64,000 nt of DNA from Tautonia plasticadhaerens (GTDB lineage: Bacteria; Planctomycetota; Planctomycetia; Isosphaerales; Isosphaeraceae): the NCBI RefSeq assembly GCF_007752535.1, contig NZ_CP036426.1:6510001-6574000 (forward strand), read 5' to 3'. The notes under the pieces were generated by a model. That model had not been told where the DNA came from, did no database searches, and worked only from the letters and a program-made list of their open reading frames with translations. Made by a program: the position numbers and the translations under genes. Shown here piece after piece: positions 26,011 to 50,993 of the stretch (positions are counted from its first letter, which is position 1; every line of letters starts with the position of its first letter).

Positions 26011-26055
26011 CTGGATGGCATTCCGGGAGAACCACTTTCAAGCCGCCGTTCTGAG
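26004..26055 (-). repeat. Right 52-bp inverted repeat of IS4-type element
   Basis: Mirror of 24505-24556. It contains the last codons and the stop of the transposase gene. Confidence 0.9.
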
Positions 26056-26603
26056 AAGAAGGAAGCAACAGAAAGACCTCCGACCAGACCCCTCCCTGGT
26101 TGTCGGGTGTCGGGATTCGCAGCCCGACAACTATGCGAATCGCAAACTTCTATCTGCGAATGGTTTGTGCGGAAGGAGCACTGGTTGTCGGGTGTCGGGT
26201 GACCGTAGAAGACTCCCGAATCCGCCACGGACGGTAGTCGGGACGTGGCGGCCGCCGCACATCGAGCAAGGCGATCTGTTCGCGACGTCATTCTCCCTCG
26301 AGAGAGGCCCTTCCCGGCCCGCCTGCCTCCATTCCTCCCCACGCCCCGCAACCGATCGATTCATCGGAAGGACTGATCAGGATGGTGGCATGACCAAAGT
26401 CACTTCTGACAAAGTGCAGCCAGATACCCAAGTGGATGGTCGAAGCGATTATTGCTCGGTCGCAGAACTTCGGTTGCCGGCCGTACCTCAATCGGTTCGC
26501 CTGATGCTTGCTTTCGGGGGGACCCAATCAGGGTGGAGCCAAGCCTTGCGGATGGCCGCTGCTGGGGCGTCGCTACGCCGCCTCAGCGTTCAGCCGTTCG
26601 ACA
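26056..26603. other. Intergenic region left of the Dpd island
   Basis: About 550 bp between the IS4-type element and dpdD. It holds palindrome cluster B. A short frame from the ATG at 26390 (MTKVTSDKVQPDTQ) runs into the 3' end of dpdD and looks unlikely to be a gene. Confidence 0.45.
26099..26199. repeat. Dispersed GTTGTCGGG/CCCGACAAC palindrome cluster B
   Basis: GTTGTCGGGTGTCGGG starting at 26099 pairs with CCCGACAAC (26123-26131); TGTCGGG-ATTCGCAG-CCCGACA gives a compact hairpin. A second copy, GTTGTCGGGTGTCGGG, lies just downstream at about 26184-26199. This cluster flanks the left side of the Dpd island. Confidence 0.7.
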
Positions 26604-26623
26604 CCTCTCAGCGTCCTGAGAGG
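26604..26623 (-). terminator. Hairpin at the end of the dpdE-D operon
   Basis: CCTCTCAG - CGTC - CTGAGAGG is a perfect 8-bp stem with a 4-nt loop, overlapping the last codons and stop of dpdD, the last gene of the minus-strand operon. No T-run is seen. Confidence 0.4.
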
Positions 26624-28863
26624 TAATCGCGCACAACGCGCAGCATGCTCGCGCTCCCCTTACCGAGCGGGCGGAGGAGCGGCATGTGGGGGGGACGATT
26701 CTTCGAGATGAAATCGGTGGCGGCGTGGGTCGCGCTTGCGACTGCCATGATGAAGAGATCGGACTGCCGCGCGAGCTGACGGAGCCGGCTACCGCCCCCC
26801 GTCTCGTGACAGAGCGAGACCCGGACGCCTGGGGCTCGGGACTCGAGGATCTGCTTTACCTGCCGCGCCGCGACCTCGTTGAGGGTGTAGATGGCGACGG
26901 ACGTATCGGCGAGGCCTGCCAAGAGATTGGCCGATGCGTGAGGTTGCTCGGAGATGAGCGGGAACGCTCGGTCGATGAGCGCGTCTTCGCCGAGGTCCCG
27001 GCCGAGGGCCGTCAGCAGATCGCGTTGCTCGGGCCCGACCTTGCGGAGAAACCCCTGGCATCGGCCGGCTATCGACCGGAACAATTCGGCCAGGGGCTCC
27101 GGCGCGGGGCGGGGGAATGCGGTAAGGAGTTCAAGCGCATCGAGGACCCAATCGAGAGTCGCTGGTGAGGCGTACGCGTCCCAGAGTCGATCAACGTATT
27201 CGACGAGCCCCCGATACGACCCCGCGTCGCCCGTCCCGAGGCCGAGGAGGGCCTCGAGCAGGTCGTTGAAGACGATCAGGTCCGTCAGCCCGCCTTCGGT
27301 GCTGACGTAGAGTAGCTCCGTGAGCCAGGCGTAGATTTCTCGGAAGGCGGGATTCGGCCACTGAGGATCGCGCCGGAAGAATTCCAGAAGGTGTGGCAGG
27401 CAGTCGCAGAGCACCCGCTCGGCCGCCTGGGAACGGTTGCGCTGGAGGGCGCCCGAGAGCTGGCCGATCGCTCCGGGGCGGGCACATAGACCCGACAAGG
27501 ACCACTCGAACGCGCCCTGCCGCGCGAACTCTCTCGCGCCCCGTCCCCCGTCGTGCCGATCGAGATACGCGAGCCAGGAGGTCCAATCAGAAGGGACCGG
27601 GACAGCATCCCCCGCATCGCCTTCTTCATCCGGAGTGGGCTGGAGCCGGTCCCAGAGGTGCTGATTCAACCGGCCGCGGAGGAACACCGCCCGCGCGTCG
27701 CCCGGGAGAGACTGGACCGCCTCGACCGCAGCGGATTTCGCCTCGAGCGTGCCGAGCTCGACCGCACACTCGCAGAGGAGCCGGGCGCGCGCCGGAGACG
27801 GCGGTGCGGGACGCATGATCGAGAAGGCTCGGTCGTAATCCGCTTCGGAGGCAGCCCTCCTTGCGAGCTCATATGGCTCGCCGGCATCGACATCCGGGGT
27901 CCCCGGCGCGAGGCCTGCGAGGGCCTCGAGGAACGACCGGTCCGCCTCGGTGAGGCCTTCGGTGGCCCGGAGATCGTCCCGAACGCGAAGGAGCGGCGGG
28001 TCGCTCGCGACGGCCCTCAGCATGAAGGTCTTGACCGCCTCGGCGGACTTGAGGCCGGCTCGCGTCGCGTAGAGCGGGCCGTAGCGTGGGAGCACCTCCT
28101 CGCGGAAGACATGGACCGCCCTCTCCGGACCCCCGAGGCTCTCCACGTGCGAAAGGTGGACCTGGTAGGCCGCCCGGATGAGCGCCTCCGTGACCGCGAG
28201 GGGACGCCGCATGCGGAGGAGATCCCGGAGCGTTGGCAGTGCGAGCAGTTCATCCCAGCGCCCGAACGAGGCGAGTGCCTGCACCTTGAGGAAGAGGAGG
28301 TTCAGGCCGTCGAGGTGGTGCTCGTCCCGCAACTGCACGAGCCGCGCGTCCGCCTCCTGCTCGTCCAACGCCTGGAGCGCCATGAAGTAGTTGCGGAGAA
28401 CGCGCCCGACGGGTTCCGGCGCCGTTCGCTCGCGGGTCCCTCGGCGATCGAGCACCGTCCTCATCCGCTCGAGGGCCATCCAGACAGCAGGCGCGGCACC
28501 GGCCGAGTCGTCTCCCCGAAACCGGTAGCAGAGCCCACCGGTGAGGGACTGCACTGCGGAGTCGACGCTGTCACCGGGTATGGGCGAGGCACGCTGCCCG
28601 CGGAAGGTCGTGTAGGTCGGTCCGACGAAGGCGGTGAGCGCCTCTCCGATGGCGCGGAACTGTCGCTCGTCGAAGGCGAGGCCGTACCAATCGACCATCC
28701 TGCCCTCACGCCAGCAGGGCAGGACCGACGGGAGCGGGTCTCCCTGCCGGATCCGTTCGACCCATGGCCGGATACGTAGATCGCGGTCGATGGTCAGCCG
28801 ATTCGGCTCCGAGAAGAAACGGTCCAGGAACGCGTCGATCTCTGGCAAGGATGGGCTGCTCAT
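26608..28863 (-). CDS. dpdD: DpdD, restriction-side protein of the Dpd system
   Basis: 751 residues from an ATG that overlaps the dpdK stop by 4 bp (ATGA). The sequence is mostly helical, with repeat-like segments in the middle (YDRAFSIMRPAPPSPARARL, GDARAVFLRGRLNQHLW), and ends in an alpha/beta region (LFIMAVASATHAATDF). I assign it to DpdD from size, the IDAFLDRFFSEPNRLTIDRD start and its place in an otherwise complete dpd cluster. In Salmonella Montevideo, dpdD contributes to the restriction phenotype (established). Its biochemical activity is not evident from motifs here. Confidence 0.8.
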   Translation of the reverse strand: MSSPSLPEIDAFLDRFFSEPNRLTIDRDLRIRPWVERIRQGDPLPSVLPCWREGRMVDWYGLAFDERQFRAIGEALTAFVGPTYTTFRGQRASPIPGDSVDSAVQSLTGGLCYRFRGDDSAGAAPAVWMALERMRTVLDRRGTRERTAPEPVGRVLRNYFMALQALDEQEADARLVQLRDEHHLDGLNLLFLKVQALASFGRWDELLALPTLRDLLRMRRPLAVTEALIRAAYQVHLSHVESLGGPERAVHVFREEVLPRYGPLYATRAGLKSAEAVKTFMLRAVASDPPLLRVRDDLRATEGLTEADRSFLEALAGLAPGTPDVDAGEPYELARRAASEADYDRAFSIMRPAPPSPARARLLCECAVELGTLEAKSAAVEAVQSLPGDARAVFLRGRLNQHLWDRLQPTPDEEGDAGDAVPVPSDWTSWLAYLDRHDGGRGAREFARQGAFEWSLSGLCARPGAIGQLSGALQRNRSQAAERVLCDCLPHLLEFFRRDPQWPNPAFREIYAWLTELLYVSTEGGLTDLIVFNDLLEALLGLGTGDAGSYRGLVEYVDRLWDAYASPATLDWVLDALELLTAFPRPAPEPLAELFRSIAGRCQGFLRKVGPEQRDLLTALGRDLGEDALIDRAFPLISEQPHASANLLAGLADTSVAIYTLNEVAARQVKQILESRAPGVRVSLCHETGGGSRLRQLARQSDLFIMAVASATHAATDFISKNRPPHMPLLRPLGKGSASMLRVVRDYLSGR

Positions 28864-29387
28864 CTCCCCTCACCTCCCCACCGATGGGAATGGAGGACGC
28901 GGTTTTCGGCAACGAACGCGGGGTCGGTCGAGTATTGCACGGCCTCCTCGTTGAGCGAGATCCCGCTGAAGGTGAAGTTCATCGAGCCGCTCAGGTAGAA
29001 GCCGTCGCCGAGGATCCCCTTCTCGTGGAGCTCCTCGGAGACGTGCAGGTGGAGCGGAAGATCCTCCGCTTCGGCATGCCTCCTGAGCCGGTCGAGGAAG
29101 GCGTCGTTGTGAGGCACCGGCCGGGTCGCTACGTGCACGGTGCTCCCGAGTTCGATCAGGCGGCCGAGCACCTGGCTCAGCCTCACCTGGCTGCGTGCCC
29201 AGCGGGGTTCGAAGCAGAGAAAACCGTTCGCGCGGTTGTCGATGACCGGGATGTCCGAGATCCAGGGGGAGACCAGCCACAGGCAACGGCTCGGGCAGAG
29301 GAACTCCGCGACGAACACGAGCTGGAGGAGATCCGAGATCTGCTTGGCGCTGGCGCGCGAATGGATAGCCCGATGCTTTGCGGTCAC
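28860..29387 (-). CDS. dpdK: DpdK, phospholipase D-like nuclease of the Dpd system
   Basis: 175 residues from a GTG start that overlaps the dpdJ stop (GTGA), with GGGAGG upstream. A single HKD-type motif is present: His121 and Lys123 in HEKGILGDGFYLSGSMNFT, with Asn137. The N-terminal half begins LVSPWISDIPV, typical of PLD-like proteins. Single-HKD proteins of this family work as dimers and cleave phosphodiesters (family knowledge), so this is the likely nuclease of the restriction branch. It is translationally coupled to both neighbours. Confidence 0.9.
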   Translation of the reverse strand: MTAKHRAIHSRASAKQISDLLQLVFVAEFLCPSRCLWLVSPWISDIPVIDNRANGFLCFEPRWARSQVRLSQVLGRLIELGSTVHVATRPVPHNDAFLDRLRRHAEAEDLPLHLHVSEELHEKGILGDGFYLSGSMNFTFSGISLNEEAVQYSTDPAFVAENRVLHSHRWGGEGR

Positions 29388-32300
29388 GGGAGCACCTCCC
29401 GGAGGTCGAGCGTGATGGAGATCGTCTCTTGCTCTTCACTCGCCTCGGCGACGTGCGGGAAAAGGTGGAGGAAGCCGACCTCGACGGGCTCGACGCCCAG
29501 GGCGAGGAGGGCCTCTTTGAGCTCGCGCCGCCCCTCGATGGGCGCGGAGAGCCGGACGGCCCCCCGGCCCGCGAGCGTACGCTGAACCTCGGCGGCCCAA
29601 TCGGGTCCGAGCGACACGGTCGCTTCGCCGACGCGGATCAGGTCCAGGAGGATCTCGCGGTCGGGCGGCGGCGATGAGGCGTAGGGGTTGAAGAAGGAGA
29701 GCCCTTCGGAACGGACCTGGAATCCCCTCGGCCAGAGGAGGCCGTAGATGACCTGGTAACGCCAGAAGGGGTCGTGGTGTGGGAAGGGACCGATCGCTGC
29801 GAATTGGCCCTGGAGCTCGGCGCTCTCCGCCGCGACGAAGGCGAAGACCCGCGGGTCGATCTCGATCCCCAGCCGCATCTCCTCCTCTCGCCACCGGACG
29901 ACGAGGTCGCGGAGCAGGGAGTCGGTCGCCGGAGAGCTCCCGGGCCGCAAGACGCGGGCGTGGAGGGCGCTCACCAGGGCGTGATTGACCGTGAAGCCGC
30001 GGGCGGCGAGGTCCCTCCGGAGGTTCGCCGACGCCCCCTGCAGTGCGGCATGACCCTCGGCCGATCGCATATCGGCGAAGGCTTCTGCGAGCCCGGGGTC
30101 GGTCGTGATACGCTCCGCGACCCGCGAGAGCTCGCGATCGACGCTCTCGAAATCGGTCGGGGCGAGTGCGCTCTCGACCAGGCGGAAGAAATGGCGCGGG
30201 TCGGCGGTGTAGGCCCTGAGCACCTCCTCGACCACGCCGCCGCCGCCGATCGTCGACTCGGTGACCCAGATCTCCTCGAGCCCCTCAGGTGCAGCCGGCG
30301 CCTCGGGAGGGCGTGGGCCCGCGCCGAGGTCGAGGACGAGATCGGCCGACTCCAACTGCGGGCAGGAGAGCTGACAGGCCTCCAGGAGAGCACCGCCGAG
30401 GGTCGCCTTGAATCGCTCGGCCGCCCACGCGCGGTAGCCCTCGTCTGGCTCGATCCAGAGGAGCGGTGCGAGCGACTCGAGGGAACGGGTGACCGCCGGG
30501 TCGCGGCAGAGTGCGAGCAGCACCCCGTGAACGCGCTGACGGATGGGGCCATTCCCGTTCGGATCCTCGAGGCTCTGGAAGATGACGTCGAGCACCCGCT
30601 CCATCTCGGCGGAGACGGAAGCCGCATGAAGCCGCCTGTGGGCCTCGTCGAGGGGGACACTATCCGCCGCCGCACGCGTGATCAGCGCGGAGAGATAGAT
30701 CTGGGACAGCCACTCACGCTGGAAGTGGTTCGTCATCAGCCCGATGGCGGGCTCGTGCTGGACCCGCTCGCGAAAGTAAGCTGTGCGAAACGACCGGACC
30801 TTCCGCTGGTTCGGGTGGCCCGGGGAGAGGCCGAGGTCGTCGGGGACCCGGAAGCGGCAGACGATCCCGTCCGACTCTTGGGTGAAGCCCAGCGCCGCCG
30901 GCCGGCCCGAGTTGCGCTCCGCGAAGCGGATGACCGTGTCGGTCTGCGAGCCGTCGCGGAACGAGAGGCTCGCCCAGGAGGCGACCGCGAAGCGGCGGAC
31001 CTGGACGTGGTTGTGATGGTTGTGCGTGTAGAAGCGGATCTCGTCGAGGATCGACGCCCAGGCCGAGCCGCGGGGGGGCTCGAAGCGGAGCCGATCGTCC
31101 TCCCGGGCGGGGCTCAGCTGCGAGCGCCATTCGAGCTGAGCGTTCGAAGTCGGCAGGACCGCGCCCGGTGCCGGAGTGGTCGTCATCTTCCACGGGCGAA
31201 GGCAGCGGACCTGATCGACTCCGTGGTCGCCCCAAACCTGGAAATCCCCTTCGTCCTGGTACTCGGTGCAGAGGTCCCCAACGAAGAACGTCTGATCGGT
31301 CCGGGTGAGGTCCGGCGGCGCGACCCAGTGGTTCGCGAACGCATGCTTGTAGCCAAAGCGGCGCGTCACCCGACCGGGCGCGAGGGTTCGGAGCGCCTGC
31401 ACGATCGGGAGGAAGTGGCTCTCGGTATCCTGGTTCCTGATCTGGGGCGGGACGACCACCTCGACCTCCGGGAGGTTGAGGTCGCCGAAGAGTTGCTGGG
31501 GGACGAAATCGGGCAGCGGATGGTCGTTGATCTGGAGGTCCGTGTCGGGCTCTTCCGGCGTTGCGGGGACTCGTCTCCAGCGGGACTCGAGGCGCCGCAA
31601 TAGCGTCGGGACGACGGCCGTGTAGATGGGCCTCGGCGGGTCCCAGAGGATCGCCCGCGTCTCCTCAGCGGTGATGCCCAAGGCATCCTGAAGATAGGCC
31701 TCGAGCGGGTCGCAGACCTCTCGCACCCCCTCGATCAGATCGACCAGGACTCGGCAGACCCACTCCTGCCTTCGCTTGGTCGCGTCGGCCCAGGGCCCCG
31801 TGCCCCTCGGAGGGCCGCTGAGGTCGCGCCAGAGGCTCCCCTCCGGGAGCTCCGCGGGCAGGCGCCCTGCGAGCCAGTCCATGAATGCGAACGCCGCCTG
31901 CATGCGAAGGACGTAGCGGTTGGCCACCGGGAGCTTCCGGAGGGGCAGCTCCGGGTCGAACAGCTCGTCGTATGCCTGGTAGGCGAGCCTGTCCCGGCCA
32001 TAGTCGGAGAGCACGACGACGGTCCACGGCCGCATGCTGCGCCGTCTCCCTGCGCGGCCCTTCCGCTGCAGGAAGGCTGCCCAGTCCCTCGGGGCCTTGT
32101 GCTGCATGACGGCGCCGACGTCGGGGTCGTTGTAGCCGACCTCGAGGGCGGCGGTCGCCACGATCACATCGCTTGCACGGTCGACCCCGACATCCTGAGA
32201 GCTCGTCCTGCCGATTCGAAGCGGCCGGGCGAGCCGGAACGGGTGTCCGACGTCCTCGCTCACCTGCCAGGACTGGCCGGCGAGCAACCGCGCGGCGTTC

Positions 32301-33940
32301 TCGGGCGCCGCCGATGACCTGAGCGCGGCGAGCGGGGCGGCGCCGGCGCGAGGACGGTTCCAGCTGTCGAGCCCCTCTGCGTCCTGCAGGTTGTTGTACA
32401 GGCGGTTCGTGACGTCGAGGTCGTCGGTGAAGACGAAGACGCGCCTGCCGAAGAGGCCGCCGCTCGGATCGCCCGTCGCCGGGTCGAGCACGCGCCTGAG
32501 GAGCATCGCGGTCTGGATGCTGGTCGAGAGGAGGCTCGTCCCGGAGCCCGGGTCACCCCGGAGAGCGAGCAGGTATTCGTCGCTCTCGGGAACTCGGTCG
32601 AACTCCCCGTCCCGCGGCGAGACCTCCTCGACCGCCCCCGAGCGGAGTCCTACCAGTTGGCCGAAGTATTCCGCCGCGGAGCGGAGCGTGGCGGAGAGGC
32701 CCGTAAACTGGACCTTGCTCCCGACCGCGTGGTGCCACCGCCGGAGGAGGAGCGCGACCTGGGCCCCAGAGACGCCCGCGTACGTGTGGACTTCGTCGAG
32801 GAGGAGCACCTGCGGCCTCCTCACACGAGGTCCGAGGCCGAAGATGTGCCCGTAGCGGGAGTCGCCCATCTGCCGATTGAGCATCTCCGTCGTGGTGAAG
32901 AGGAGGTCGGGAGGGGTCTGGGACATCCGCGAGCGGGTCAGGAGGACCTCATCACCCCGCAGTACGGTCCCGCATCCCGCCCTCTCGCAGCGGAGCTCCT
33001 CGGCGTTCCGGGCGACGAGTTCCGCCGGCCAGACGAGGTCTCCCTCGCAGTTCGGGCAGCGGAGGAACGGGCAGAGGTAGCCGCCGGACGGTGCCTGGGC
33101 CCAGGTCGAGTAGCGGCTCAGGTCGCCGGCTTGGTGCGGAGTCGGGCCGAAGAAGGCGCCGATCGCCAGCTTCCGGCCGGCCGAGGAGGTGAGCAGCCCG
33201 TCGAGGCGGCGCGCCTCGGTGTAGGCTTCGGAGAACTGGTCCTTCAGGAGCTCGTTCCTCGGGTAGATCGCGAGCCCCTTCGTCCAGAACGAGGCTCGCT
33301 CGACCAGCCCCGCGAGGTGGCTGAGCGCCGGCAGGAAGAAGGCGAGCGTCTTACCGGTCCCGGTGCCCGCCCCGACGATCACCCCGCGGCTCGATCGGGA
33401 CTCGTTCAGGTCGAGGAGGATCCTCCGGAGCGCCTGGAACTGGAAATCGGCGAGCAGGAGGGCGTCCGGACGGTTGGCCCTGAGCAGGAGCTCCAGCGCC
33501 TTCCGCTTCGGCGCCGAGAGCCTCACCTCGGCGCCGATCGCCTCGAGCACCGCCGCCGGGTCCAGGTGACGCGTCGGGTAGCGGCGGGGGCGCCTGTCGA
33601 ACCGGAAGTCGGCGACCAGGGTCGGGGCGATCCTCCAGGGGCGACCCGGGAAGAGTTGCCGGAGCCTGGCGAGGAGCCTCACCGCCTCCGCCATGCGCGT
33701 CCGGTAGAGCTGCCTCGACCCGAGCAGCATGGGGAAGAGCAACTTCCGATCGATCAGCTCGTCTCGGAGTTCCCCTGCCGAAAGGTCGATCCCGCGGGAT
33801 GCGATCGCAGCCTCGGCATGCTCTTCGATCTCCTCCGCGGTGAACCCGCCGTCGACCACGCCCCAGGAGAGGAGCTTCGATTCCTCCCGCTCGAGCACGT
33901 CCAGGAAGTGGCGGACGACCGACTCGAAACCATCGATCAT
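29384..33940 (-). CDS. dpdJ: DpdJ, DEAD/DEAH-box helicase of the Dpd system
   Basis: 1518 residues from an ATG with AAGGA upstream. Walker A is GAGTGTGKT (residues 190-198) and the Walker B box is DEVH (382-385). A Cys cluster (LCPFLRCPNC at about 289-298, RCERAGC at 317-323) is a likely zinc site. The C-terminal helicase core shows IVATAALEVGYNDPDVGAV and FLQRKGRAGRR. About 900 further residues form a large C-terminal region without obvious motifs. It probably translocates on DNA during recognition of unmodified targets (inference). It is the longest gene in the window. Confidence 0.92.
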   Translation of the reverse strand: MIDGFESVVRHFLDVLEREESKLLSWGVVDGGFTAEEIEEHAEAAIASRGIDLSAGELRDELIDRKLLFPMLLGSRQLYRTRMAEAVRLLARLRQLFPGRPWRIAPTLVADFRFDRRPRRYPTRHLDPAAVLEAIGAEVRLSAPKRKALELLLRANRPDALLLADFQFQALRRILLDLNESRSSRGVIVGAGTGTGKTLAFFLPALSHLAGLVERASFWTKGLAIYPRNELLKDQFSEAYTEARRLDGLLTSSAGRKLAIGAFFGPTPHQAGDLSRYSTWAQAPSGGYLCPFLRCPNCEGDLVWPAELVARNAEELRCERAGCGTVLRGDEVLLTRSRMSQTPPDLLFTTTEMLNRQMGDSRYGHIFGLGPRVRRPQVLLLDEVHTYAGVSGAQVALLLRRWHHAVGSKVQFTGLSATLRSAAEYFGQLVGLRSGAVEEVSPRDGEFDRVPESDEYLLALRGDPGSGTSLLSTSIQTAMLLRRVLDPATGDPSGGLFGRRVFVFTDDLDVTNRLYNNLQDAEGLDSWNRPRAGAAPLAALRSSAAPENAARLLAGQSWQVSEDVGHPFRLARPLRIGRTSSQDVGVDRASDVIVATAALEVGYNDPDVGAVMQHKAPRDWAAFLQRKGRAGRRRSMRPWTVVVLSDYGRDRLAYQAYDELFDPELPLRKLPVANRYVLRMQAAFAFMDWLAGRLPAELPEGSLWRDLSGPPRGTGPWADATKRRQEWVCRVLVDLIEGVREVCDPLEAYLQDALGITAEETRAILWDPPRPIYTAVVPTLLRRLESRWRRVPATPEEPDTDLQINDHPLPDFVPQQLFGDLNLPEVEVVVPPQIRNQDTESHFLPIVQALRTLAPGRVTRRFGYKHAFANHWVAPPDLTRTDQTFFVGDLCTEYQDEGDFQVWGDHGVDQVRCLRPWKMTTTPAPGAVLPTSNAQLEWRSQLSPAREDDRLRFEPPRGSAWASILDEIRFYTHNHHNHVQVRRFAVASWASLSFRDGSQTDTVIRFAERNSGRPAALGFTQESDGIVCRFRVPDDLGLSPGHPNQRKVRSFRTAYFRERVQHEPAIGLMTNHFQREWLSQIYLSALITRAAADSVPLDEAHRRLHAASVSAEMERVLDVIFQSLEDPNGNGPIRQRVHGVLLALCRDPAVTRSLESLAPLLWIEPDEGYRAWAAERFKATLGGALLEACQLSCPQLESADLVLDLGAGPRPPEAPAAPEGLEEIWVTESTIGGGGVVEEVLRAYTADPRHFFRLVESALAPTDFESVDRELSRVAERITTDPGLAEAFADMRSAEGHAALQGASANLRRDLAARGFTVNHALVSALHARVLRPGSSPATDSLLRDLVVRWREEEMRLGIEIDPRVFAFVAAESAELQGQFAAIGPFPHHDPFWRYQVIYGLLWPRGFQVRSEGLSFFNPYASSPPPDREILLDLIRVGEATVSLGPDWAAEVQRTLAGRGAVRLSAPIEGRRELKEALLALGVEPVEVGFLHLFPHVAEASEEQETISITLDLREVLP

Positions 33941-33964
33941 GCCTGAGTCCTTGACGGGACAACC

Positions 33965-34672
33965 TTAGTTGGTGAGTCGGACTGAGAAGGAGTTCAGGAT
34001 GCCGTGGTCGTGGAGCCATCCCCTCACCTCGTCGGTGAGCAGCTCGATCGACGCCCCCCGCAAGGATGCAGCTGATCGGAGGAAGTCGAGGACCGAAGAC
34101 GGGAGCTCCCCGCCGCCGAGCTCATCCCAGGAGCGTCGGAGCGACTTAGCGACGTTCGTGAACGCCTCGAAATCCTCGGTCGTCATCGGGAGAGCTTGGC
34201 GGGCACGTTCGCACTGCTCGGCGAGGAGGCGGATTCGCCCGACCTCCCGCGGGAACGCCGCGGCAAGGACGTCGAGCACCTCGCGGTTCGTCGAAGGGAT
34301 CCGTGCGGCGGTGTAGCTCGCCCAGCGTTCCCGGAGTTCGGCCTCGAGCGCATCGGCGAGCGCGACGATCCTTCGCAGCACGCCGTTCATCCCGAGCGTC
34401 CGTTCGTCGAGGATCGAGTCGGCGCCCTCCCGATATTTCGCGTGCAGCTCGGCGATCGCGGCCCGGCATTCCTCGGCGGAATCGAGGCGGATCTCGCCGA
34501 CTCCAGCGGCACGGAGGGTGCGGCACACGTTGACGAGAGGCGCCAGGCGCGAGACGTGACCCGCGAGGAGGTCGCGGGCCCGCTGGAAGCGGTTCAGCTG
34601 CTCGACGTGGATGCGGAGCCGTCGCTTCTCCGCGATGCGTTCGGAGAGCCTGCGGCACTCGTCGACGATCAT
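33965..34672 (-). CDS. dpdI: DpdI, small helical protein of the Dpd restriction operon
   Basis: 235 residues, almost entirely alpha-helical, with coiled-coil-like heptads (RRLSERIAEKRRLRIHVEQL, VALADALEAELRERW). Its ATG overlaps the dpdH stop by 4 bp and a 24-bp gap separates it from dpdJ. I assign it to DpdI from its position between dpdH and dpdJ, in the same E-to-K order used to name the Salmonella cluster, not from a recognised domain. dpdI was among the genes tied to restriction there. It may be a structural partner of the ATPase DpdH (inference). Confidence 0.7.
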   Translation of the reverse strand: MIVDECRRLSERIAEKRRLRIHVEQLNRFQRARDLLAGHVSRLAPLVNVCRTLRAAGVGEIRLDSAEECRAAIAELHAKYREGADSILDERTLGMNGVLRRIVALADALEAELRERWASYTAARIPSTNREVLDVLAAAFPREVGRIRLLAEQCERARQALPMTTEDFEAFTNVAKSLRRSWDELGGGELPSSVLDFLRSAASLRGASIELLTDEVRGWLHDHGILNSFSVRLTN

Positions 34673-44200: not shown

Positions 44201-44645
44201 AGGCGGCGTGCTGCCGGACGAGCGAGCGGAGGAATCGGAACCGCGGGTCGTGGAAATATGGGGTCTCGTGACCCTTGCAGATGAGCGTCTCAATCGGGTC
44301 ATCGATCGGCGTGAGCGAGCGAACGTAGATCTGCTCTTCCGGCAGGTAGCAGGCCTTCCGGTCCGGGAAGAACACCTCATACTCGCCCCGGTGCTTCCGC
44401 CCGATCCGGCCCATGCGCCAGCGGTCGTCCGGGCCGGGGACATAGCACCTGGTCTGAGAGGCGACCTTCTCGATTCGATGGACCTCGGTGGACGGCACCA
44501 CCTCGCGCGTGCGCCTCGTGAGCGAATGGAGATACTCGACCGTGACGCCCTCCCGATCGCTCGCGATGATCTTCCCGATACCCAGGCGATTGAGGTCGCC
44601 TTCAACCCGGACGAATGCGCCGACACGCAAGCCCTGAGCGCTCAT
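41277..44645 (-). CDS. dpdE: DpdE, SNF2/HepA-type helicase-like protein of the Dpd system
   Basis: 1122 residues from an ATG with GGGGGA upstream. The first 110 residues contain two small beta-barrel-like segments (VGAFVRVEGDLNRLGIGKII; RWRMGRIGRKHRGEYEVFF), as in RapA/HepA. The SNF2 core has DEVGLGKTIEAG (Lys191), the DEAQ box (264-267), and a C-terminal motif with HFDLPFSPNRMEQRIGRLDR. The long C-terminus is charged and coiled. SNF2 enzymes translocate on duplex DNA, so it may scan for unmodified DNA (inference). First gene of the minus-strand operon. Confidence 0.92.
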   Translation of the reverse strand: MSAQGLRVGAFVRVEGDLNRLGIGKIIASDREGVTVEYLHSLTRRTREVVPSTEVHRIEKVASQTRCYVPGPDDRWRMGRIGRKHRGEYEVFFPDRKACYLPEEQIYVRSLTPIDDPIETLICKGHETPYFHDPRFRFLRSLVRQHAACHGMTGLLSSKIELYPHQVEVARRVLQDPVQRYLLSDEVGLGKTIEAGIILRQFLLDDPAGRALVVVPPLLIDQWCDELEAKFQAARFGQERLAVIGTDELVEEYARHPWGLVIIDEAQHIAAGAFAEDQQERRRFALFEEFCRNAERVLLLSATPVLNNERDFLAMLHLLDPSVYRLADLDAFRERVRGRQETGHILLSLQEGKPRFLLESSLRRLRDEFPKDGTLFRLADALDSALAADPVDAAARDRAIRTIRVHISETYRLHRRMLRNRRASVDVPTLSGRTTGASGATPRILEHDLDERAPRVHELLEEWRVSATIALGRAEGELAKRGITEASLARVFQLLLQAAGTWFEFLAEVVIARLRGEASGSLSQDLTEDERRVLSGTPHFPGEREVLEGVLQVLSEPSEEGDRIRLLELALRNVRRAGGGGIVPKCVVFTSYGTACRAILSRLTARFGEVAVAGYHRGLPPEAVEQAVSRFRLHPACSVLVCDRAGEEGRNLQFAERVIHFDLPFSPNRMEQRIGRLDRIGRDRPVRSTIFIGPPCEASLFEAWYRVLDEGFRVFDSSIASLQFFVDERLPDLRLEAFRRGAEGLHGLIESIRRGIEQELERIREQDALDAIDALEQNAVAYFTSLRELEVSHAELEADLHAWVGDTLRFRRDPNFYRTERTILYAPERDRWGELGSLVPSDWLHARLLSHLDIPGTFDRAQAVRSPGTTLFRIGDGLVNAMESYLHWDDRGQAFALWRREPGWDRAEGAEWTGFRFNYHVSADLRAARSVLADCGLPAGAVRSLKRLADALFPPLIEVVYLDTDGEVVSDPELLEILGRPYTKRSEGGSDYNLGEERLPVLDELIEPSRWREVCERTRRRSEREVLDRGTPPLRDRCEEYARRAERELGARLAQLRTRIERERDEAASGSACDSRDLALEEALNEATISGIRTPTVRLDSVGFLVVSGREPTLGVSGEGLE

Positions 44646-44918
44646 TCAATTCCCCCAAATGCCGTGAGGCGTCCGTGCAGGAGAAACGTGACGATCGAGC
44701 ACGACGCAACTCCGGGTCGTCGGCGGAACACAGTTCAAGCGAGCGCTGTTCGTTCCTCAGTCCGGCACCGTTTCACTTGCCGCGATATCGAGCCGATAGA
44801 AAACTATGCGCGAGGTCGAGATTCTCCGGTGCGAGAGGTAGCCGGCCGGCGCATCGACCCATAAGATTGATCACGATGCACCATCCTCCCGTTCCAAGTC
44901 CTGGGGAAAGGGGTCGAT
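44646..44918. promoter_or_regulatory. Divergent intergenic region between restriction and modification arms
   Basis: This 273-bp gap is the only place where both arms of the Dpd cluster can start transcription. It is less GC-rich in patches (GATAGAAAACTATGCG, CCCATAAGATTGATCACGAT). The plus side holds GGGGAAAGGGG just ahead of the dpdC TTG start. No operator repeat is obvious to me. Confidence 0.5.
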
Positions 44919-45887
44919 TTGGGACCGCCGGTCAACGTCCTCATCACCTGCACGAATCGGAAAAAGGTGCCTGCCGCGCCAGGACTTGCGCTCCGCACCG
45001 TGCCTGGTTCGACCGTTGCAGAACGTTCCGCCGAGTGGGTGGAACGACTGCGGGCCGACCTGTCTGACCCCGTCCCCGTCGCGGACCTCTACGCCGGCGA
45101 CCACTGGCATGTGGCCTGTTCGCTCCCGAAGATCGCGAACGACGGCGGGATAAGACTAACGCTCTGGATCTGTTCGGCGGGTTATGGCCTCATCCCATTT
45201 TACGGCATGGTTCGCTCGTACGCCGCGACCTTCGCGGCGAATCACCCGGATGCCGTGGACCGGGGGATCGTCGATGTCGATCCGAACGCAGCGAGGCGCA
45301 AGTGGTGGGCGCACCTAGCCCTATGGGAGGGCCCCGGTCCGGGAGAGCCGAGGACCATCGCAGAGCTCGCACGGAATCAACCACACAGTATACTGCTCGT
45401 GGCCGCGTCGGCTCAATACCTCGAGGCGGTCTCTGAGGACCTGCTGGCCGCGGCGACGCTGATCGACGACCACGAGCGATTGGCCGTCTTCTCCGCGGGC
45501 GCGCGCTCGGCATCGCACCCAACGCTCGCCGCCTCATTCATCCCGTGCGATGCCCGCCTGAGCAGGACCTTCGGCGGGGCGCTGGGGTCGCTCAATGTCC
45601 GCTGCGTCCGCTTCGCGCTCCAGAACGCAGCTCGCTGTGGGATCAGAACTTCCGCGCTGAAGGACCTGTTCCGGCGGGAGCAGGAGCGGCTCCCGCGGTA
45701 CCAGACCTACGACCGCTCCCCGCTCAGCGACGACGAAGTCCGAGGCTACGTCCGCGAGGCCCTCGTTGCGGAGCCGGCGGCGCGGCCGACTCCCCTCCTG
45801 CGCAGTCTGCGGGATGGGGGCAAGGCCTGCGAACATTCGCGGTTCTGCAGGCTGTTCCGCGAGGTGGAGGGAGAGGGCCGTGCCTAG
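44919..45887 (+). CDS. dpdC: DpdC, predicted preQ0-in-DNA to amido-deazaguanine converting enzyme
   Basis: 322 residues from a TTG start with GGGGAAAGGGG upstream. VLITCTNRKK (6-15) and WICSAGYGLIPFYGM match the DUF6884/YaaA-like fold, and ILLVAASAQYL is a third conserved strand-turn. The C-terminal ~90 residues form a helical extension (RREQERLPRYQTYDRSPLSD). In Salmonella Montevideo, DpdC is needed to turn inserted dPreQ0 into dADG (established). The assignment here is by fold motifs plus position immediately before dpdB and dpdA. It overlaps dpdB1 by 8 bp. Confidence 0.8.
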   Translation: MGPPVNVLITCTNRKKVPAAPGLALRTVPGSTVAERSAEWVERLRADLSDPVPVADLYAGDHWHVACSLPKIANDGGIRLTLWICSAGYGLIPFYGMVRSYAATFAANHPDAVDRGIVDVDPNAARRKWWAHLALWEGPGPGEPRTIAELARNQPHSILLVAASAQYLEAVSEDLLAAATLIDDHERLAVFSAGARSASHPTLAASFIPCDARLSRTFGGALGSLNVRCVRFALQNAARCGIRTSALKDLFRREQERLPRYQTYDRSPLSDDEVRGYVREALVAEPAARPTPLLRSLRDGGKACEHSRFCRLFREVEGEGRA

Positions 45888-47016
45888 GAAAAGGAATCCC
45901 GTGCTGAGGAAGGCGGCGTTGCGGGTCGAGCAGAACGGAAGGCACCCGCTCTACCTCATGAGCCTGACCGCGCGCGAACTGCACGCCGTCGCCGACATCT
46001 CGCGCATCAACCGGGACGATTCCGGGACGCTCCTCGGCTATCAACGGGGCGAGGTGAGGCGGCACGTCCGGGACATCGTGGAGTACCTGGACGGCGACGA
46101 CGTGCTGTTCCCGAATTCCATCATCATCTCCCTGACGTCCCGCGTTCGTTTCGAGCCGGGGCACGGGGCATGCGGGAGCGATGGGGCATCAACGGGCACG
46201 ATCTGCATCCCGCTCCCCGGAGATGGGGAGGCGAGGCCGGGCTGGATCGTCGACGGCCAGCAGCGTGCCCTCGCGCTGATGCAGTCGAAGCGGGCGGATT
46301 GGCCGGTCCCGGTGAACGCCTTTATCGCGGACGAGGTATCGCTCCAGCGCGACCAGTTCCTCCGGGTGAACAACACCAAGCCGCTCCCCCGCGGGCTCAT
46401 CTGCGAACTCCTGCCCGAGGTATCCGGCCCGTTGCCTCGTAAGCTCGCGGGGAGACGCCTCCCCTCCTCGCTCTGCGACCTCCTCGATCGCGAGCGGTCG
46501 TCGCCGTTCCGCGGCCTCATACGACGAACGTCCCAGGCGGACAGGCAGGCCAAGTCAACCGTCGTGGCCGATGCGTCCCTCATCATGATGCTCGAGGAGA
46601 GCATCGGCACCCCCGCCGGATGCCTCTTCCCGTACCACAACATCTCGACCGGAGAGTGCGACCTCGACGGGATCTGGAGCATCCTCGTCGCCTACTGGTC
46701 CGCCGTCCGCGAGAGCTTCCCCGAGGCCTGGGGCAAGCCCCCGTCTCGCAGCCGCTTGATGCACGGCACCGGCATCCGAGCGATGGGCCGGCTCATGGAC
46801 CGCGTGATGGCGGGCTTCCACCCCGGCGAGAGGAACCTCCGCAAGCGCATCGAGCAGGAGTTGAGGCCCGTCGTCCCGATCTGCCGGTGGACCTCCGGCC
46901 GGTGGGAGGAGCTCCAGCTCGAGTGGCGAGAGATCCAGAACGTCCCCCAGCACCTCCGGCTGCTCTCCAACCTGCTCGTCCGCGCGTACCTCCGTGGCCG
47001 AGGGGGTGCGGCATGA
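45880..47016 (+). CDS. dpdB: DpdB paralogue 1 (DGQHR/DndB-like)
   Basis: 378 residues from a GTG (MPRKRNPVLRKAAL) that overlaps dpdC by 8 bp; the frame continues upstream but only inside dpdC. The DGQHR-family signature appears as WIVDGQQRALAL (DGQQR at 125-129), followed by RVNNTKPLPRGLICELLPEV. LLGYQRGEVRRHV and LFPNSIIISL are further family blocks. DpdB assists DpdA in inserting preQ0 into DNA (established in Salmonella). A second copy lies after dpdA, which is unusual. It overlaps dpdA by 4 bp. Confidence 0.88.
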   Translation: MPRKRNPVLRKAALRVEQNGRHPLYLMSLTARELHAVADISRINRDDSGTLLGYQRGEVRRHVRDIVEYLDGDDVLFPNSIIISLTSRVRFEPGHGACGSDGASTGTICIPLPGDGEARPGWIVDGQQRALALMQSKRADWPVPVNAFIADEVSLQRDQFLRVNNTKPLPRGLICELLPEVSGPLPRKLAGRRLPSSLCDLLDRERSSPFRGLIRRTSQADRQAKSTVVADASLIMMLEESIGTPAGCLFPYHNISTGECDLDGIWSILVAYWSAVRESFPEAWGKPPSRSRLMHGTGIRAMGRLMDRVMAGFHPGERNLRKRIEQELRPVVPICRWTSGRWEELQLEWREIQNVPQHLRLLSNLLVRAYLRGRGGAA

Positions 47017-48278
47017 AGTTCTTCTTCCCGGACAGCCAGGACCTCGTCGACCCGTCGTTCGACTTCCTGACCGAGAAGCGATCCGAGACGAGGATCCGAC
47101 AGCAGCACGACGAGTACCCGCACGAGGTCTTCGCCACGCCGCCCTACGACGGGATGCTCGTCTCCAAGGGGATCGTCGACGGCACCGGCTCCGACGGGGG
47201 CCGCTATACGATCGCCCAGCGACAGCGCCTCCTCCGCCAGGGGGTCCGCTCGTTCTTCCGGCTCGAAGGCCGACCGATCGAGACGATGGGCGACTGCGGC
47301 GCATTCTCCTACGTCAAGGAGCGGCGGCCGCCGTTCTCCGTCCAGGAGGTCATCGACTTCTACGCGAACTGCGGATTCGACTACGGCCTCTCGGTCGATC
47401 ACATCATCCTCGCCTTCCAGCCCGGTCTGGACGAGACGTTGAGCGGCTTGGACGTTGTCCCCGAGGAATGGAGGGAACGGCAGCGGATCACGCTCGAGCT
47501 CGCGGAGGAGTTCCTGCGGCTCCATCGGGACCAGCGATGCCGCTTCGTGCCGGTCGGGATCGCTCAGGGTTGGAGCCCCCGCTCGTACGCCGAGGCGTTC
47601 GGCGAGCTGCAGCAGATGGGCTATCGCTACATTGCGCTCGGCGGGATGGTCCCGCTGAAGACCCCAGAGATCCTCTCCTGCCTCAAGGCGGTGGACAAGG
47701 TGAGGCGGCCGGAGACGCAGATCCATCTGCTGGGCGTCACGCGGATCGATCACATCCCACGCTTCTCCCGGCTCGGGGTGGTGAGCTTCGACAGCACCTC
47801 GCCGCTCCGCCAGGCGTTCAAGGATGAGAAGGACAACTATTACACGCTCGACCGCACGTACTGCGCGATCCGCGTGCCCCAGGTCGACGGCAATCCGAAG
47901 CTCCGCCGGAGGATCGCGTCGGGTGCGGTCGACCAGGCGGAGGCGCGGAGGCTCGAGCAGGCCTGTCTTGGCGTCCTCAACGGGTTCGACGGCGGGCGGT
48001 GCACGGCCGATGAGGCCCTGGCCGCGATCCAGTCCTATGAGGGCCTCCACGACGAACGATCGAACCGGGCGAAGGCCTATCGCGAGATCCTCAGCGACCA
48101 GCCCTGGAAGCGGTGCCCCTGCGAGATCTGCCGACGGATCGGCATCCACGTGATGCTCTTCCGCGGCGCCGAACGGAACAGGCGGCGCGGGTTCCACAAC
48201 CTCTACGTCTTCCACCAGAGAGTCCAGCGGGAGAGCGAAGGCTCGCCCGCACGCGGGAGGAGGGTCGGCACCGTATGA
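47013..48278 (+). CDS. dpdA: DpdA, DNA-guanine transglycosylase (TGT-like)
   Basis: 421 residues from an ATG (MKFFFPDSQDLV) overlapping dpdB1 by 4 bp. Upstream in-frame sequence is a shadow of dpdB1. The TGT barrel shows TMGDCGAFSY with Asp94, aligned with the substrate Asp of tRNA TGT, and VVSFDSTSPLRQAF with Asp260 as the likely nucleophile. YIALGGMVPLKT is also typical. A zinc site is formed by Cys368, Cys370 and Cys373 (CPCEIC) with a His near 395-401. It exchanges guanine for preQ0 in DNA (family function). Overlap with dpdB2 indicates tight coupling. Confidence 0.95.
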   Translation: MKFFFPDSQDLVDPSFDFLTEKRSETRIRQQHDEYPHEVFATPPYDGMLVSKGIVDGTGSDGGRYTIAQRQRLLRQGVRSFFRLEGRPIETMGDCGAFSYVKERRPPFSVQEVIDFYANCGFDYGLSVDHIILAFQPGLDETLSGLDVVPEEWRERQRITLELAEEFLRLHRDQRCRFVPVGIAQGWSPRSYAEAFGELQQMGYRYIALGGMVPLKTPEILSCLKAVDKVRRPETQIHLLGVTRIDHIPRFSRLGVVSFDSTSPLRQAFKDEKDNYYTLDRTYCAIRVPQVDGNPKLRRRIASGAVDQAEARRLEQACLGVLNGFDGGRCTADEALAAIQSYEGLHDERSNRAKAYREILSDQPWKRCPCEICRRIGIHVMLFRGAERNRRRGFHNLYVFHQRVQRESEGSPARGRRVGTV

Positions 48279-49468
48279 CTCACAAGGGACGAAACGGCTC
48301 GGCGCGGGCGAAGGACGCGACGAAGGAGTTCCGCCTGCCCGCCATCGAGGTCCGCCAGGGGCCCTCGCGGACGCTCTACAGCTTCGCGGTGGACGGGAAA
48401 CTCCTCTCCCGCTTCACCACCGTGTCGCGGGTGAGGCGGGCGGACGGTGCTGCGATCCGGGGGTACCAGCGCCCCGAGGTGCTCTCCCACATCGCCGAGA
48501 TCCGCGACTACCTCGAGGCCGGCGACCCGATGATCCCGAACGCGGTCGTCGTCGCCTTCGACCGCCGCGTGCGGTTCGAGCCGGGGGCGGCGTCGGGATC
48601 GGAAGGGCGGGGATACTCGCGGGTCGGCTCGCTCGTCATCCCGCTCGACCCGGATCTCGCCGAGGCGGACCGGCCGGGGTGGATTGTCGACGGCCAGCAG
48701 CGGATCGCGGCCATCCGCGAGGCGGAGATCGAGAGCTTCCCAATCTGCGTCGTGGCGTTCGTCACCGACGACGAGCAGGAGCAGCGGGAGCAGTTCATCC
48801 TGGTCAATTCCACCAAGCCCCTCCCGAAGGGCCTGATCTACGAGCTCCTCCCGAACACGCGGGCCAAGCTCCCGTCGCTCCTCCAGGGGAGGCGCTTCCC
48901 CGCCCTGCTCGTGGATCGGCTGAACCACGACGCCGGCTCGCCGCTCCGAGGCCTCATCAAGACGCCGACGGTCGGGGATGGGCTCATCAAGGACAACTCG
49001 GTCCTGAAGATGCTCGAGAACAGCCTGACCGATGGCGTCCTCTACCGCTTCCAGGCCGGGGATCGGGAGGGCGAGGCGGATGTCGAGGCGATGCTGGGCG
49101 TGCTCCACGCCTTCTGGCGCGCGGCGGCGGAGGTCTTCCGCGACGCCTGGGGGATTTCGCCGCGCCGGTCCCGCCTCATGCATGGGGCGGGGATCGTGAG
49201 CGTCGGGTTCGTGATGGACGCGATCGCCGACCGCTACCGGCGGCATGGCGTGCCGGGCGAGGAGCAGTTCCGCCGGGACCTGGAGCCGCTCCGCGAGGCC
49301 TGCCGCTGGACCGACGGGTACTGGGACTTCGGGCCCGGCATCCAGCGGAAATGGAACGAGATCCAGAACACGCCGCGCGATATCCAGCTGCTCTCGAATT
49401 ACCTGCTCGTCCAGTACAAGGCCCGGGTGTGGAACCGGGCCGCCGAAGAGAATCTACTCGCCCATTGA
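48275..49468 (+). CDS. dpdB: DpdB paralogue 2 (DGQHR/DndB-like)
   Basis: 397 residues from an ATG overlapping the dpdA stop (ATGA). It is clearly related to dpdB1: IRGYQRPEVLSHI, MIPNAVVVAF, WIVDGQQRIAAI (139-143) and LVNSTKPLPKGLIYELLPNT have counterparts at the same spacing, and both end with a WNEIQN / WREIQN segment followed by LLSN. The N-terminus carries a ~20-residue basic extension. Two dpdB genes flanking dpdA suggest a heteromeric complex or two target specificities (inference). Confidence 0.88.
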   Translation: MTHKGRNGSARAKDATKEFRLPAIEVRQGPSRTLYSFAVDGKLLSRFTTVSRVRRADGAAIRGYQRPEVLSHIAEIRDYLEAGDPMIPNAVVVAFDRRVRFEPGAASGSEGRGYSRVGSLVIPLDPDLAEADRPGWIVDGQQRIAAIREAEIESFPICVVAFVTDDEQEQREQFILVNSTKPLPKGLIYELLPNTRAKLPSLLQGRRFPALLVDRLNHDAGSPLRGLIKTPTVGDGLIKDNSVLKMLENSLTDGVLYRFQAGDREGEADVEAMLGVLHAFWRAAAEVFRDAWGISPRRSRLMHGAGIVSVGFVMDAIADRYRRHGVPGEEQFRRDLEPLREACRWTDGYWDFGPGIQRKWNEIQNTPRDIQLLSNYLLVQYKARVWNRAAEENLLAH

Positions 49469-49535
49469 GCGTCGGCCGCCCGCGGCGTGCTCCGCCTTCA
49501 CGCCGCGGCAGATGCGGGCGAACAGGGAGGTCGAG

Positions 49536-50234
49536 ATGCTCTTTCCGGTAGTCGAGAACCACCGACTGGATGCGCTTCGGGGGAAGCCGGTCGGCAGCCT
49601 GATGGTCCACGAGATTTACCGGAGCCTCCAGGGCGAGTCGACCTTCGCCGGGCTGCCCTGCGTCTTCGTCCGCCTCACCGCCTGCTCGGCTCGCTGCGTC
49701 TGGTGCGACACCCCGCATGCCTTCAGGGGGGGGAAGGTGTTATCGTTAGACGCTGTCGTCGGGGAGGTGATCGGCTACGGATGTCCGCTCGTCGAACTCA
49801 CCGGAGGCGAGCCGCTCCTCCAGGAGGAGTCGCATGAGCTGATGACGCGCCTGGCCGATTCCGGAGAGACGGTCCTCCTGGAGACCAGCGGGACCGTCCC
49901 CGTCGAGCGGGTCGATCGGCGGGTCCACATCATCATGGACCTGAAGTGCCCCGGTAGCGGGGAGTGCGAGAACAACCTGTGGTCGAACCTGGGCTGGCTG
50001 AAGCCGACGGACCAGATCAAGTTCGTGATCGCGTCGCGGGAAGACTTCGACTGGACCGTGGCCGCGATCCGCGAGCACGGCCTCGACCGTCGCTTCACGG
50101 TCCTCTTGAGCTCGGTCTTCGGCCCGGTGAATCCCGCGGTGTTGGCCGAATGGCTCCTCGACTCCGGCCTGAACGTCCGCCTGCAATTGCAGCTCCACAA
50201 GTACATCTGGGAGCCGAACGCACGCGGCGTCTGA
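49536..50234 (+). CDS. queE: QueE, 7-carboxy-7-deazaguanine synthase
   Basis: 232 residues from an ATG with GGGAGG upstream; earlier in-frame codons are shadows of dpdB2. EIYRSLQGESTFAGLPCVFV leads to the radical-SAM cluster Cys50, Cys54, Cys57 (ACSARCVWCD, CX3CX2C), followed by VELTGGEPLLQ and LETSGT. It ends with QLHKYIWEPNARGV as in other QueE proteins. It converts 6-carboxy-tetrahydropterin to 7-carboxy-7-deazaguanine, a step towards preQ0. It lies 67 bp after dpdB2, so it probably supplies precursor to DpdA. Confidence 0.95.
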   Translation: MLFPVVENHRLDALRGKPVGSLMVHEIYRSLQGESTFAGLPCVFVRLTACSARCVWCDTPHAFRGGKVLSLDAVVGEVIGYGCPLVELTGGEPLLQEESHELMTRLADSGETVLLETSGTVPVERVDRRVHIIMDLKCPGSGECENNLWSNLGWLKPTDQIKFVIASREDFDWTVAAIREHGLDRRFTVLLSSVFGPVNPAVLAEWLLDSGLNVRLQLQLHKYIWEPNARGV

Positions 50235-50276
50235 GGTGAACTCTCTCGCTTCGCCCCTGTCGCTCGTTCCGTGGAA

Positions 50277-50993
50277 TCAACCGGTGCTCGCATAAGGGAC
50301 TGGATCCGGGATGCCGAGACTCTCGAAGGCCGCAAGCCTCACGCGGCAGGCGTCGCACCTCCCGCATGAGCGGCCGTCCGGGGCCGGGTCGTAGCAGGTG
50401 TGCGTGAGGCCGTAGTTGACGCCGAGCTCGAGCCCGCGCCGGATGATCTGCTCCTTCGAGAACCGGAGGAGCGGGGCGTGGACCCGGAAGCGGCCGCTCC
50501 CTTCGACGCCGGCCCTCGTCGCCAGGTTGGCGAGCGCCTCGAAGGCCTGGAAGTATTCGGGGCGACAGTCGGGATAGCCGCTGTAGTCGACGCAGTTCGC
50601 GCCGGTGAAGATGTCGTAGGCACCGAGTGCCTCGGCCCAGGCGAGGGCTAGGCTCAGGAGGATCGTGTTCCGAGCGGCGACGTATGTGATCGGGATCCCG
50701 TCTGCGATCGCATCATCGGGGCGATCCTTCGGGACCTCGAGGGCCGCGTCGGTGAGCGCGCTCCCTCCGAAGGGCCTGAGATCGATCTCCTGCTCGAGGT
50801 GACGAGCGACCCCGAACGCGCGAGCGACCCGGCCGGCCGCCTCGCGCTCGACCGCGTGACGCTGCCCGTAGAGGACCGTCAGCGCGTACGGCTCGAAGCC
50901 CGCCGCTTTCGCCTCCGCGAGTACCGTCGCCGAGTCGAGGCCGCCGCTCAGGAGCACGACGGCGATCCGCCGCTCTGTTACCGATTCTGTCAC
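50277..50993 (-). CDS. queC: QueC, 7-cyano-7-deazaguanine (preQ0) synthase
   Basis: 238 residues from a GTG with AGGAG 7 nt upstream. The ATP-pyrophosphatase P-loop SGGLDSAT is at 16-23, with [18 protein letters not shown] and a C-terminal four-Cys zinc site ([18 protein letters not shown]). It turns 7-carboxy-7-deazaguanine into preQ0 using ATP and ammonia. It is convergent with queE (42-bp gap), so it has its own promoter on the right side. queD and folE are not in the window. Confidence 0.95.

Follow-up and report, generated by a model that had tools for sequence, protein, structure and literature searches.

Does a planctomycete chromosome carry a complete Dpd system, in which DNA is marked with 7-deazaguanines and unmarked DNA is restricted, and what is the second copy of dpdB that lies within it? 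The question is raised by a 64-kb stretch of the 9.40-Mb genome of Tautonia plasticadhaerens (bases 6510001–6574000 of contig 1; hereafter the window, whose positions serve as coordinates throughout), in which 14 open genes at 26608–50993 form one island comprising all eleven dpd genes (dpdA to dpdK, dpdB being present twice) together with queE and queC. We read it as a complete Dpd restriction-modification island with a two-DpdB layout, and give this reading a probability of roughly 0.9. In the published scheme, DpdA acts with the ParB-like ATPase DpdB to insert preQ0 into DNA, and DpdC converts it to the amido-deazaguanine (ADG) nucleoside dADG (PMC12839542; the chemistry is also given in PMC11888242); 7-deazaguanine marks are also known from phages (PMC6884629, PMC12137116).

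Open reading frames and direct reading of the sequence gave gene coordinates, strands and an order that agree with the original prediction, a description made from the letters of this DNA, which had placed all Dpd parts in two divergent arms. The restriction arm lies on the minus strand and is transcribed in the order dpdE-F-G-H-I-J-K-D; the synthesis arm, dpdC-dpdB1-dpdA-dpdB2-queE, lies on the plus strand, with queC on the minus strand. We searched the proteins with the PADLOC profile hidden Markov models, the NCBIfam equivalogs with their curated cut-offs, and Pfam. PADLOC names every dpd gene, with E values from 4e-15 (DpdG) to 0 (DpdJ), DpdI being the exception at 0.0075, and ten of the 12 Dpd proteins (DpdD, K, H, G, F, A, E, J and both DpdB) pass their NCBIfam cut-offs. 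The proposed check against the Dpd families thus came out as expected for these ten and failed for DpdI, which falls below its cut-off, and for DpdC, which PADLOC alone names. The best PADLOC or NCBIfam profile covers each dpd protein nearly end to end, so that nothing points to decay by frameshift, and the motifs that had been called intact in DpdA, the three helicases, DpdK, QueE and QueC were all found.

Within the restriction arm, dpdE (41277–44645, minus strand, as are all genes of this arm; 1122 residues) encodes an SNF2-type helicase/ATPase (PADLOC 3.4e-238; NCBIfam NF041062, 1038 bits, cut-off 500) with Pfam SNF2-rel_dom and Helicase_C domains and the motifs GLGKT and DEAQ. A RecQ-like DEAH helicase with GAGKS and DEAH is encoded by dpdF (38677–41280; 867 residues; PADLOC 1.9e-221; NF041063, 910 bits, cut-off 550), and a large SF2 helicase with Pfam DEAD and Helicase_C domains and the motifs GTGKT and DEVH by dpdJ (29384–33940; 1518 residues; PADLOC E 0, 1624 bits; NF041067, 1891 bits, cut-off 800); DpdJ has been placed in the YprA helicase family (PMC12458937). 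The AAA ATPase gene dpdH (34669–37767; 1032 residues; PADLOC 2.6e-146, searched in a TTG-start form; NF041065, 959 bits, cut-off 450) starts at an ATG, with a TTG 3 bases upstream, and its product carries GEAGTGKS; DpdE, F, J and H all carry motifs of the Walker A/B type. The PLD-type nuclease gene dpdK (28860–29387; 175 residues; PADLOC 1.4e-59; NF041068, 206 bits, cut-off 100) encodes a single HKD motif (HEKGILGD) and GSMN, with a Pfam PLDc_2 score of 23.1 bits, below the cut-off of 27. DpdG (37757–38680; 307 residues) was named by PADLOC at 4e-15 in the longer frame 37757–38932 and by NF041064 at 123 bits (cut-off 80), and has no Pfam match at E 0.01. The last gene, dpdD (26608–28863; 751 residues; PADLOC 4e-86; NF041061, 542 bits, cut-off 300), encodes a protein whose profile found nothing similar in sequence among solved structures at E 0.01; its AlphaFold2 model (predicted local distance difference test score (pLDDT) 86.3, predicted template modelling score 0.53) has a predicted helical repeat and a small C-terminal alpha/beta domain, and VIA-align returned generic helical-repeat matches only (best Z 11.0), from which we draw no function.

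Five of the seven junctions in this arm are 4-bp overlaps, as the phrase ‘mostly 4-bp overlaps’ in the original prediction had it; dpdG and dpdH share 11 or 14 bp, and a gap of 24 bp separates dpdI from dpdJ. Similarly, 4-bp overlaps join dpdB1 to dpdA and dpdA to dpdB2 in the synthesis arm. Such stop/start overlaps suggest translational coupling only, and the further claim that the products are made in a fixed ratio, as for a large complex, does not follow from them. The state of the arm also decides how far one may entertain a self-marking, anti-restriction element in which the DNA is modified and the restriction genes are silent or decayed, as would suit the poor conservation of DpdI and the reported occurrence of islands that lack a restriction operon (PMC11888242). 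All eight restriction genes, however, are open and full-length, and the known motifs are kept in those that have them, which would not be expected of a decaying arm, and we consider such an element improbable.

The DNA-guanine transglycosylase itself, DpdA (47013–48278, plus strand; 421 residues), is assigned by PADLOC PDLC02807 at 6.3e-182 and by NCBIfam NF041059 at 591.5 bits (cut-off 200), and can be aligned over its whole length with the Salmonella DpdA of known structure (PDB 7UI4, E 5.2e-132), with the active-site segments kept. It carries GDCGAF, S-V-D-H (D129), F-D-S-T (D260) and C368/C370/C373/H395; D129, D260 and the Cys/His set are invariant in five aligned DpdA proteins, and from the wider family of tRNA-guanine transglycosylases (TGT) we take the two aspartates to be the catalytic pair and the Cys/His set to be the zinc site. 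Its nearest named relative is the DpdA of Limnoglobus (69% identity), in line with the planctomycete origin that had been proposed. Models of tRNA TGT score below their cut-offs (TIGR00449, 20.7 bits against 47.6; TIGR00432, 17.8 against 350), so that DpdA did not fall into the ordinary tRNA TGT clade, the outcome that the original prediction had named as fatal to it; Pfam TGT scores 28.8 bits, just over its cut-off of 26.3, a marginal match as expected of a distant relative.

Next to these genes lie two for preQ0 supply: queE (49536–50234, plus strand; 232 residues), a radical SAM 7-carboxy-7-deazaguanine synthase (Pfam Radical_SAM, 41.8 bits) with CSARCVWC (CX3CX2C), and queC (50277–50993, minus strand; 238 residues), a preQ0 synthase (Pfam QueC, 227 bits; NCBIfam TIGR00364, 172 bits, cut-off 150.3) with SGGLDS. 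Elsewhere, the same genome encodes FolE, two PTPS/QueD-type proteins, QueF, a true Tgt (492 bits), a second QueE and a second QueC, with a third QueC match barely over the cut-off (22.8 of 22 bits). The island holds neither FolE nor QueD, and thus duplicates QueE and QueC while borrowing FolE and QueD; since a true Tgt, QueF and the precursor genes are in the genome, the host probably makes queuosine. This leaves very little room for taking DpdA as a tRNA transglycosylase in a cluster that serves tRNA queuosine: the presence of queE and queC in the cluster and the marginal Pfam score could be read that way, but a true Tgt, QueF and further copies of QueE and QueC are encoded elsewhere in the genome, and DpdA reaches 592 bits against the DpdA equivalog and matches 7UI4. 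Nor does it seem credible that the island is a Dpd-like hybrid of the BREX-Related Capture (BRC) or YprA kind, for although BRC carries a TGT homologue (PMC12839542) and Dpd-like systems carry a 7-deazaguanine biosynthetic cluster and usually two YprA-like helicases (PMC12458937), DpdB (twice), DpdC and all of DpdD to DpdK are present here, no search having been aimed at BREX or HerA/FtsK genes. A phage-borne DpdA was rejected as well, the cluster carrying a full bacterial restriction arm.

The origin of the supply genes appears to differ from that of the dpd core. The island QueE shares 73% identity with the QueE of the Limnoglobus island, 59% with the chromosomal QueE and at most 38%, in partial alignments, with those of other islands (among the best 14 matches); the island QueC is 71% identical to the chromosomal QueC and at most 63% to those of other islands (again among the best 14). 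By these identities, taken without a tree, the supply genes look to have been recruited inside the planctomycete lineage and not carried along with the dpd core.

Several observations weigh against a complete and working island. DpdI (33965–34672, minus strand; 235 residues) is divergent: besides its position between dpdH and dpdJ and the PADLOC match noted above, it scores 47 bits against NCBIfam NF041066, under the cut-off of 150, and yet the profile aligns over 5–239 of 239 positions at E 3e-12. The assignment of dpdC (44919–45887, plus strand; 322 residues, with an uncertain TTG start codon), predicted to encode the enzyme converting preQ0 to ADG, comes from PADLOC (2e-76, residues 5–317 of 322), with no match in Pfam at E 0.01 or in NCBIfam at E 0.001. 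The best NCBIfam model for the island QueE, TIGR04349, reaches 267.8 bits, just under its cut-off of 300. Finally, the 273-bp gap between the arms (44646–44918), by its geometry the likely promoter region, showed no sigma-70-like site in a scan of 44400–45100 (0.1 expected by chance), a scan that says little for the phylum of this host; five inverted repeats in the region are short or imperfect and not informative on a promoter.

With the genes so assigned, the most likely function of the island is to mark the DNA of its host with dADG and to attack DNA that is unmarked. Chromosomal FolE and QueD would make the pterin precursor, which QueE and QueC of the island (or the chromosome) would turn into preQ0; DpdA, working with ATP-using DpdB1 and DpdB2, would exchange chosen guanines in DNA for preQ0, and DpdC would convert preQ0 to the amide to yield dADG. 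The arm of DpdE to DpdK plus DpdD, with its three helicases, AAA ATPase, PLD nuclease and three further proteins to which no role is assigned, would attack DNA that lacks the mark. A restriction phenotype has been reported for the Dpd system of Salmonella Montevideo, and dPreQ0 or dADG is a reasonable prediction for the native DNA of Tautonia.

We subsequently turn to the second DpdB. The upstream paralogue dpdB1 (45880–47016, plus strand; 378 residues, GTG start assumed; motif DGQQR) and dpdB2 (48275–49468, plus strand; 397 residues) both belong to the DGQHR/ParB-like ATPase family and exceed the NCBIfam NF041060 cut-off of 300 bits (409.9 and 482.9), their ATPase role being predicted. Scanning named genomes with the DpdA alignment gave 315 relatives; the 80 nearest were used, so that the frequencies describe near relatives only, and DpdB neighbours of dpdA were counted at a score threshold of 120 within 1500 bases. 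In 44 of these 80 loci dpdA is directly flanked by a DpdB on either side, and in 33 by a downstream one alone, although three of the 33 (L050, L056 and L101) break off no more than about 360 bases upstream of dpdA; the remaining loci have two DpdB pieces downstream (L037) or none (L073 and L081). By phylum, pairs occur in Planctomycetota (7/7), Actinomycetota (26/35), Myxococcota (7/13) and Pseudomonadota (1/17), and in smaller groups in Acidobacteriota (1/1), Hydrogenedentota (1/1), Chloroflexota (0/2), Gemmatimonadota (0/1), Verrucomicrobiota (0/1) and unplaced genomes (1/2). One Acidimicrobiaceae bin (SB0668_bin_28) holds two dpd islands, one with DpdB1 and one without (L043 and L044), a natural pair for comparing both layouts if the bin is clean.

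In a DpdB tree of 121 sequences, which includes the window pair and leaves out pieces of 250 residues or fewer, all 45 upstream copies fall on one side of a branch with a Shimodaira–Hasegawa-like approximate likelihood ratio support of 100, and all 76 downstream copies (43 that belong to pairs and 33 that stand alone) on the other, so that DpdB2 of the window groups with single-copy DpdB. Removing nine long-branch loci left the split unchanged (42 against 67 rows, support 100); both trees are quick ones, unrooted and without bootstrap. DGQQR is conserved at 100% in both clades, and in 48 columns the two clades share one residue at a conservation of 95% or more, alongside residues that switch between B1 and B2: R162 (98%) against L (100%), R216 (100%) against T (100%) and S218 (100%) against T (100%). 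The T and K of an NxTKPL stretch are found in 64% and 40% of B1 and in 96% and 96% of B2, and B1 of the window has T-K. On the DpdA tree, the presence of the pair changes at least nine times by parsimony, at least five of these forced by well-supported branches (77 labelled rows, after removal of L071, in which many stops interrupt the matched dpdA frame, and with no label given to three truncated loci). Given the split in the DpdB tree and these repeated changes, the second DpdB looks like an old, distinct subfamily that has been repeatedly gained or lost, rather than a recent duplication.

Mirror-tree analysis of 41 of the 45 pair loci (L024, L025, L027 and L071 were left out because pieces were missing or stops fell within the matched stretch) gave correlations of 0.73 for B1 with B2, 0.70 for B1 with DpdA and 0.82 for B2 with DpdA, and a partial correlation of 0.39 for B1 with B2 given DpdA; such values show co-inheritance and are no proof of contact. 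A profile of DpdB1 found none similar in sequence among solved structures at E 0.01, and Foldseek had no match to its AlphaFold2 model (pLDDT 80.7) at E up to 0.001. In a second look with VIA, rows 1–13 were ParB, Noc, KorB, PadC and sulfiredoxin (Z 7.4 to 5.5), over about 92–99 residues apart from two rows of 152 and 191; row 14 was an uncharacterised protein (Z 5.1) and row 15 the first unrelated protein (Z 4.8). With Z under the caution line of 8 and a small margin, the model is suggestive of a ParB-like fold, which fits the published ‘ParB-like’ label.

We infer that B1 and B2 act together. The single B1 clade, the subfamily residues, DGQQR in both copies, the recurring B1-A-B2 order and the weak ParB-like match are consistent with the tentative idea, to which we give somewhat less than even odds, that DpdB1 is a so far unrecognised and functionally distinct subunit, that DpdA works with a DpdB1–DpdB2 hetero-oligomer and that B1 alters or widens the choice of guanines, which would make such islands a distinct subtype; perhaps the two form a heterodimeric, nucleotide-driven, ParB-fold clamp on DNA. 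Extra dpdB copies are already in print; our search of the open-access literature turned up none in which DpdB1 and DpdB2 are told apart as two families. NCBIfam and PADLOC give both copies one DpdB name, so that a recurrent second modification component is hidden in annotation.

Transposase and recombinase genes lie around the island. A DDE transposase gene (24589–26010) is separated by some 600 bases from the point where dpdD ends; further out are a weaker transposase match (17480–18532; 22.7 of 23 bits) and a serine recombinase (18767–20884), and on the other side of the island a Rhodopirellula-type DDE transposase (55996–57209) is split over two frames. No tRNA, sought as a mobility signature, was found in the 64-kb window. 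DpdA occurs in five of 99 relatives and in eight of 392 genomes of the phylum, its own genome included in both counts, the other seven of the phylum set showing 34–43% identity. The three congeners examined have no DpdA and no match to the reading frame at 26015–26626 or to the genes at 8177–10300 and 58047–60446; since these flanking genes are unmatched there, no empty site can be defined, and the island region reads as accessory. Of the four other DpdA carriers among the 99 relatives, two, G061 (62%) and G086 (55%), have dpdC-dpdB-dpdA-dpdB with restriction genes.

Other DpdA relatives sit in different company. In the remaining two of these four carriers, G011 (L015, L016) and G053 (L017, L018), DpdA is about 40% identical and the surrounding 38–39 kb have no DpdB or DpdC match; G011 has queC and queE beside its DpdA relative and G053 has weak DpdE-helicase matches, and these loci are possibly Dpd-like systems of another kind. 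One planctomycete genome (G200) has three DpdA matches (L103, L109 and L111) in a stretch of some 20 kb, and two of them appear to be pieces of a single gene.

Elsewhere in the window, a small DUF4259 gene (51099–51491, minus strand) lies directly past queC, and at 58047–60446 (minus strand) a family A DNA polymerase with a 3'-5' exonuclease domain has a relative at 42% in another part of the genome, whereas the three congeners have none. Of the products of three neighbouring genes at 5660–11400 (minus strand), one has a CHAT domain (Pfam, 157.9 bits), one a caspase domain (73.8 bits), and one is a trypsin-like protease (29.7 of 27.6 bits); the caspase gene has two more relatives at contig positions 6602241–6609188 and none in the three congeners. 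A 439-residue reading frame at 22390–23709 has a LAGLIDADG_3 match just over the cut-off (24 of 22.5 bits), and its ends look intein-like by reading; it is possibly a free-standing intein or a homing fragment. A dispersed short repeat, a 14–17-base string of the type GGTTGTCGGGTGTCGGG, occurs four times counting both strands and gives repeated peptides in spurious reading frames.

The island is an additional case of the known Dpd system, for which a survey counts 2,335 unique dpd windows, spread over eight phyla (PMC11888242), Planctomycetota not being among those it names. In the open-access literature, the only paper with both ‘planctomyc’ and ‘dpdA’ mentions Planctomycetota for another gene cluster, and synthesis layouts like that of Tautonia are already present in public planctomycete genomes. 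Like BRC, the island has a TGT homologue in a defence locus; unlike BRC, reported to be without DpdB and DpdC (PMC12839542), it has DpdC, and DpdB twice. With the Dpd system of Salmonella it shares the same gene families in a synthesis and a restriction operon (PMC11888242), and a DpdA homologous to 7UI4 from end to end. It differs in phylum, in having queE and queC inside the island, and in its two DpdB genes, the enterobacterial loci examined being C-A-B. The Salmonella system has a single DpdB, and the type studied in vitro would thus lack the recurrent second component. Islands of Actinomycetota and Myxococcota (Micromonospora, L048; Polyangium, L033) share the gene order dpdC-dpdB1-dpdA-dpdB2 and both DpdB clades, but their queC-queE lie upstream of dpdC, unlike in Tautonia, and the QueE of two-DpdB islands of these phyla is the distant one described above. 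Closest of all is the island of Limnoglobus sp. (Gemmataceae, L023), in which H-G-F-E on the minus strand and C-B1-A-B2-queE on the plus strand follow the identical order, with identities of 76% for DpdB2 and 62% for DpdB1 beside those already given for DpdA and QueE; unlike the Tautonia island, it has no QueC match within the 20.5 kb examined, the rest of its restriction arm lying beyond that piece. Set beside these systems, the Tautonia island offers a fully intact Dpd example from a planctomycete, and a case in which the queuosine genes of the host coexist with island genes for the same precursor.

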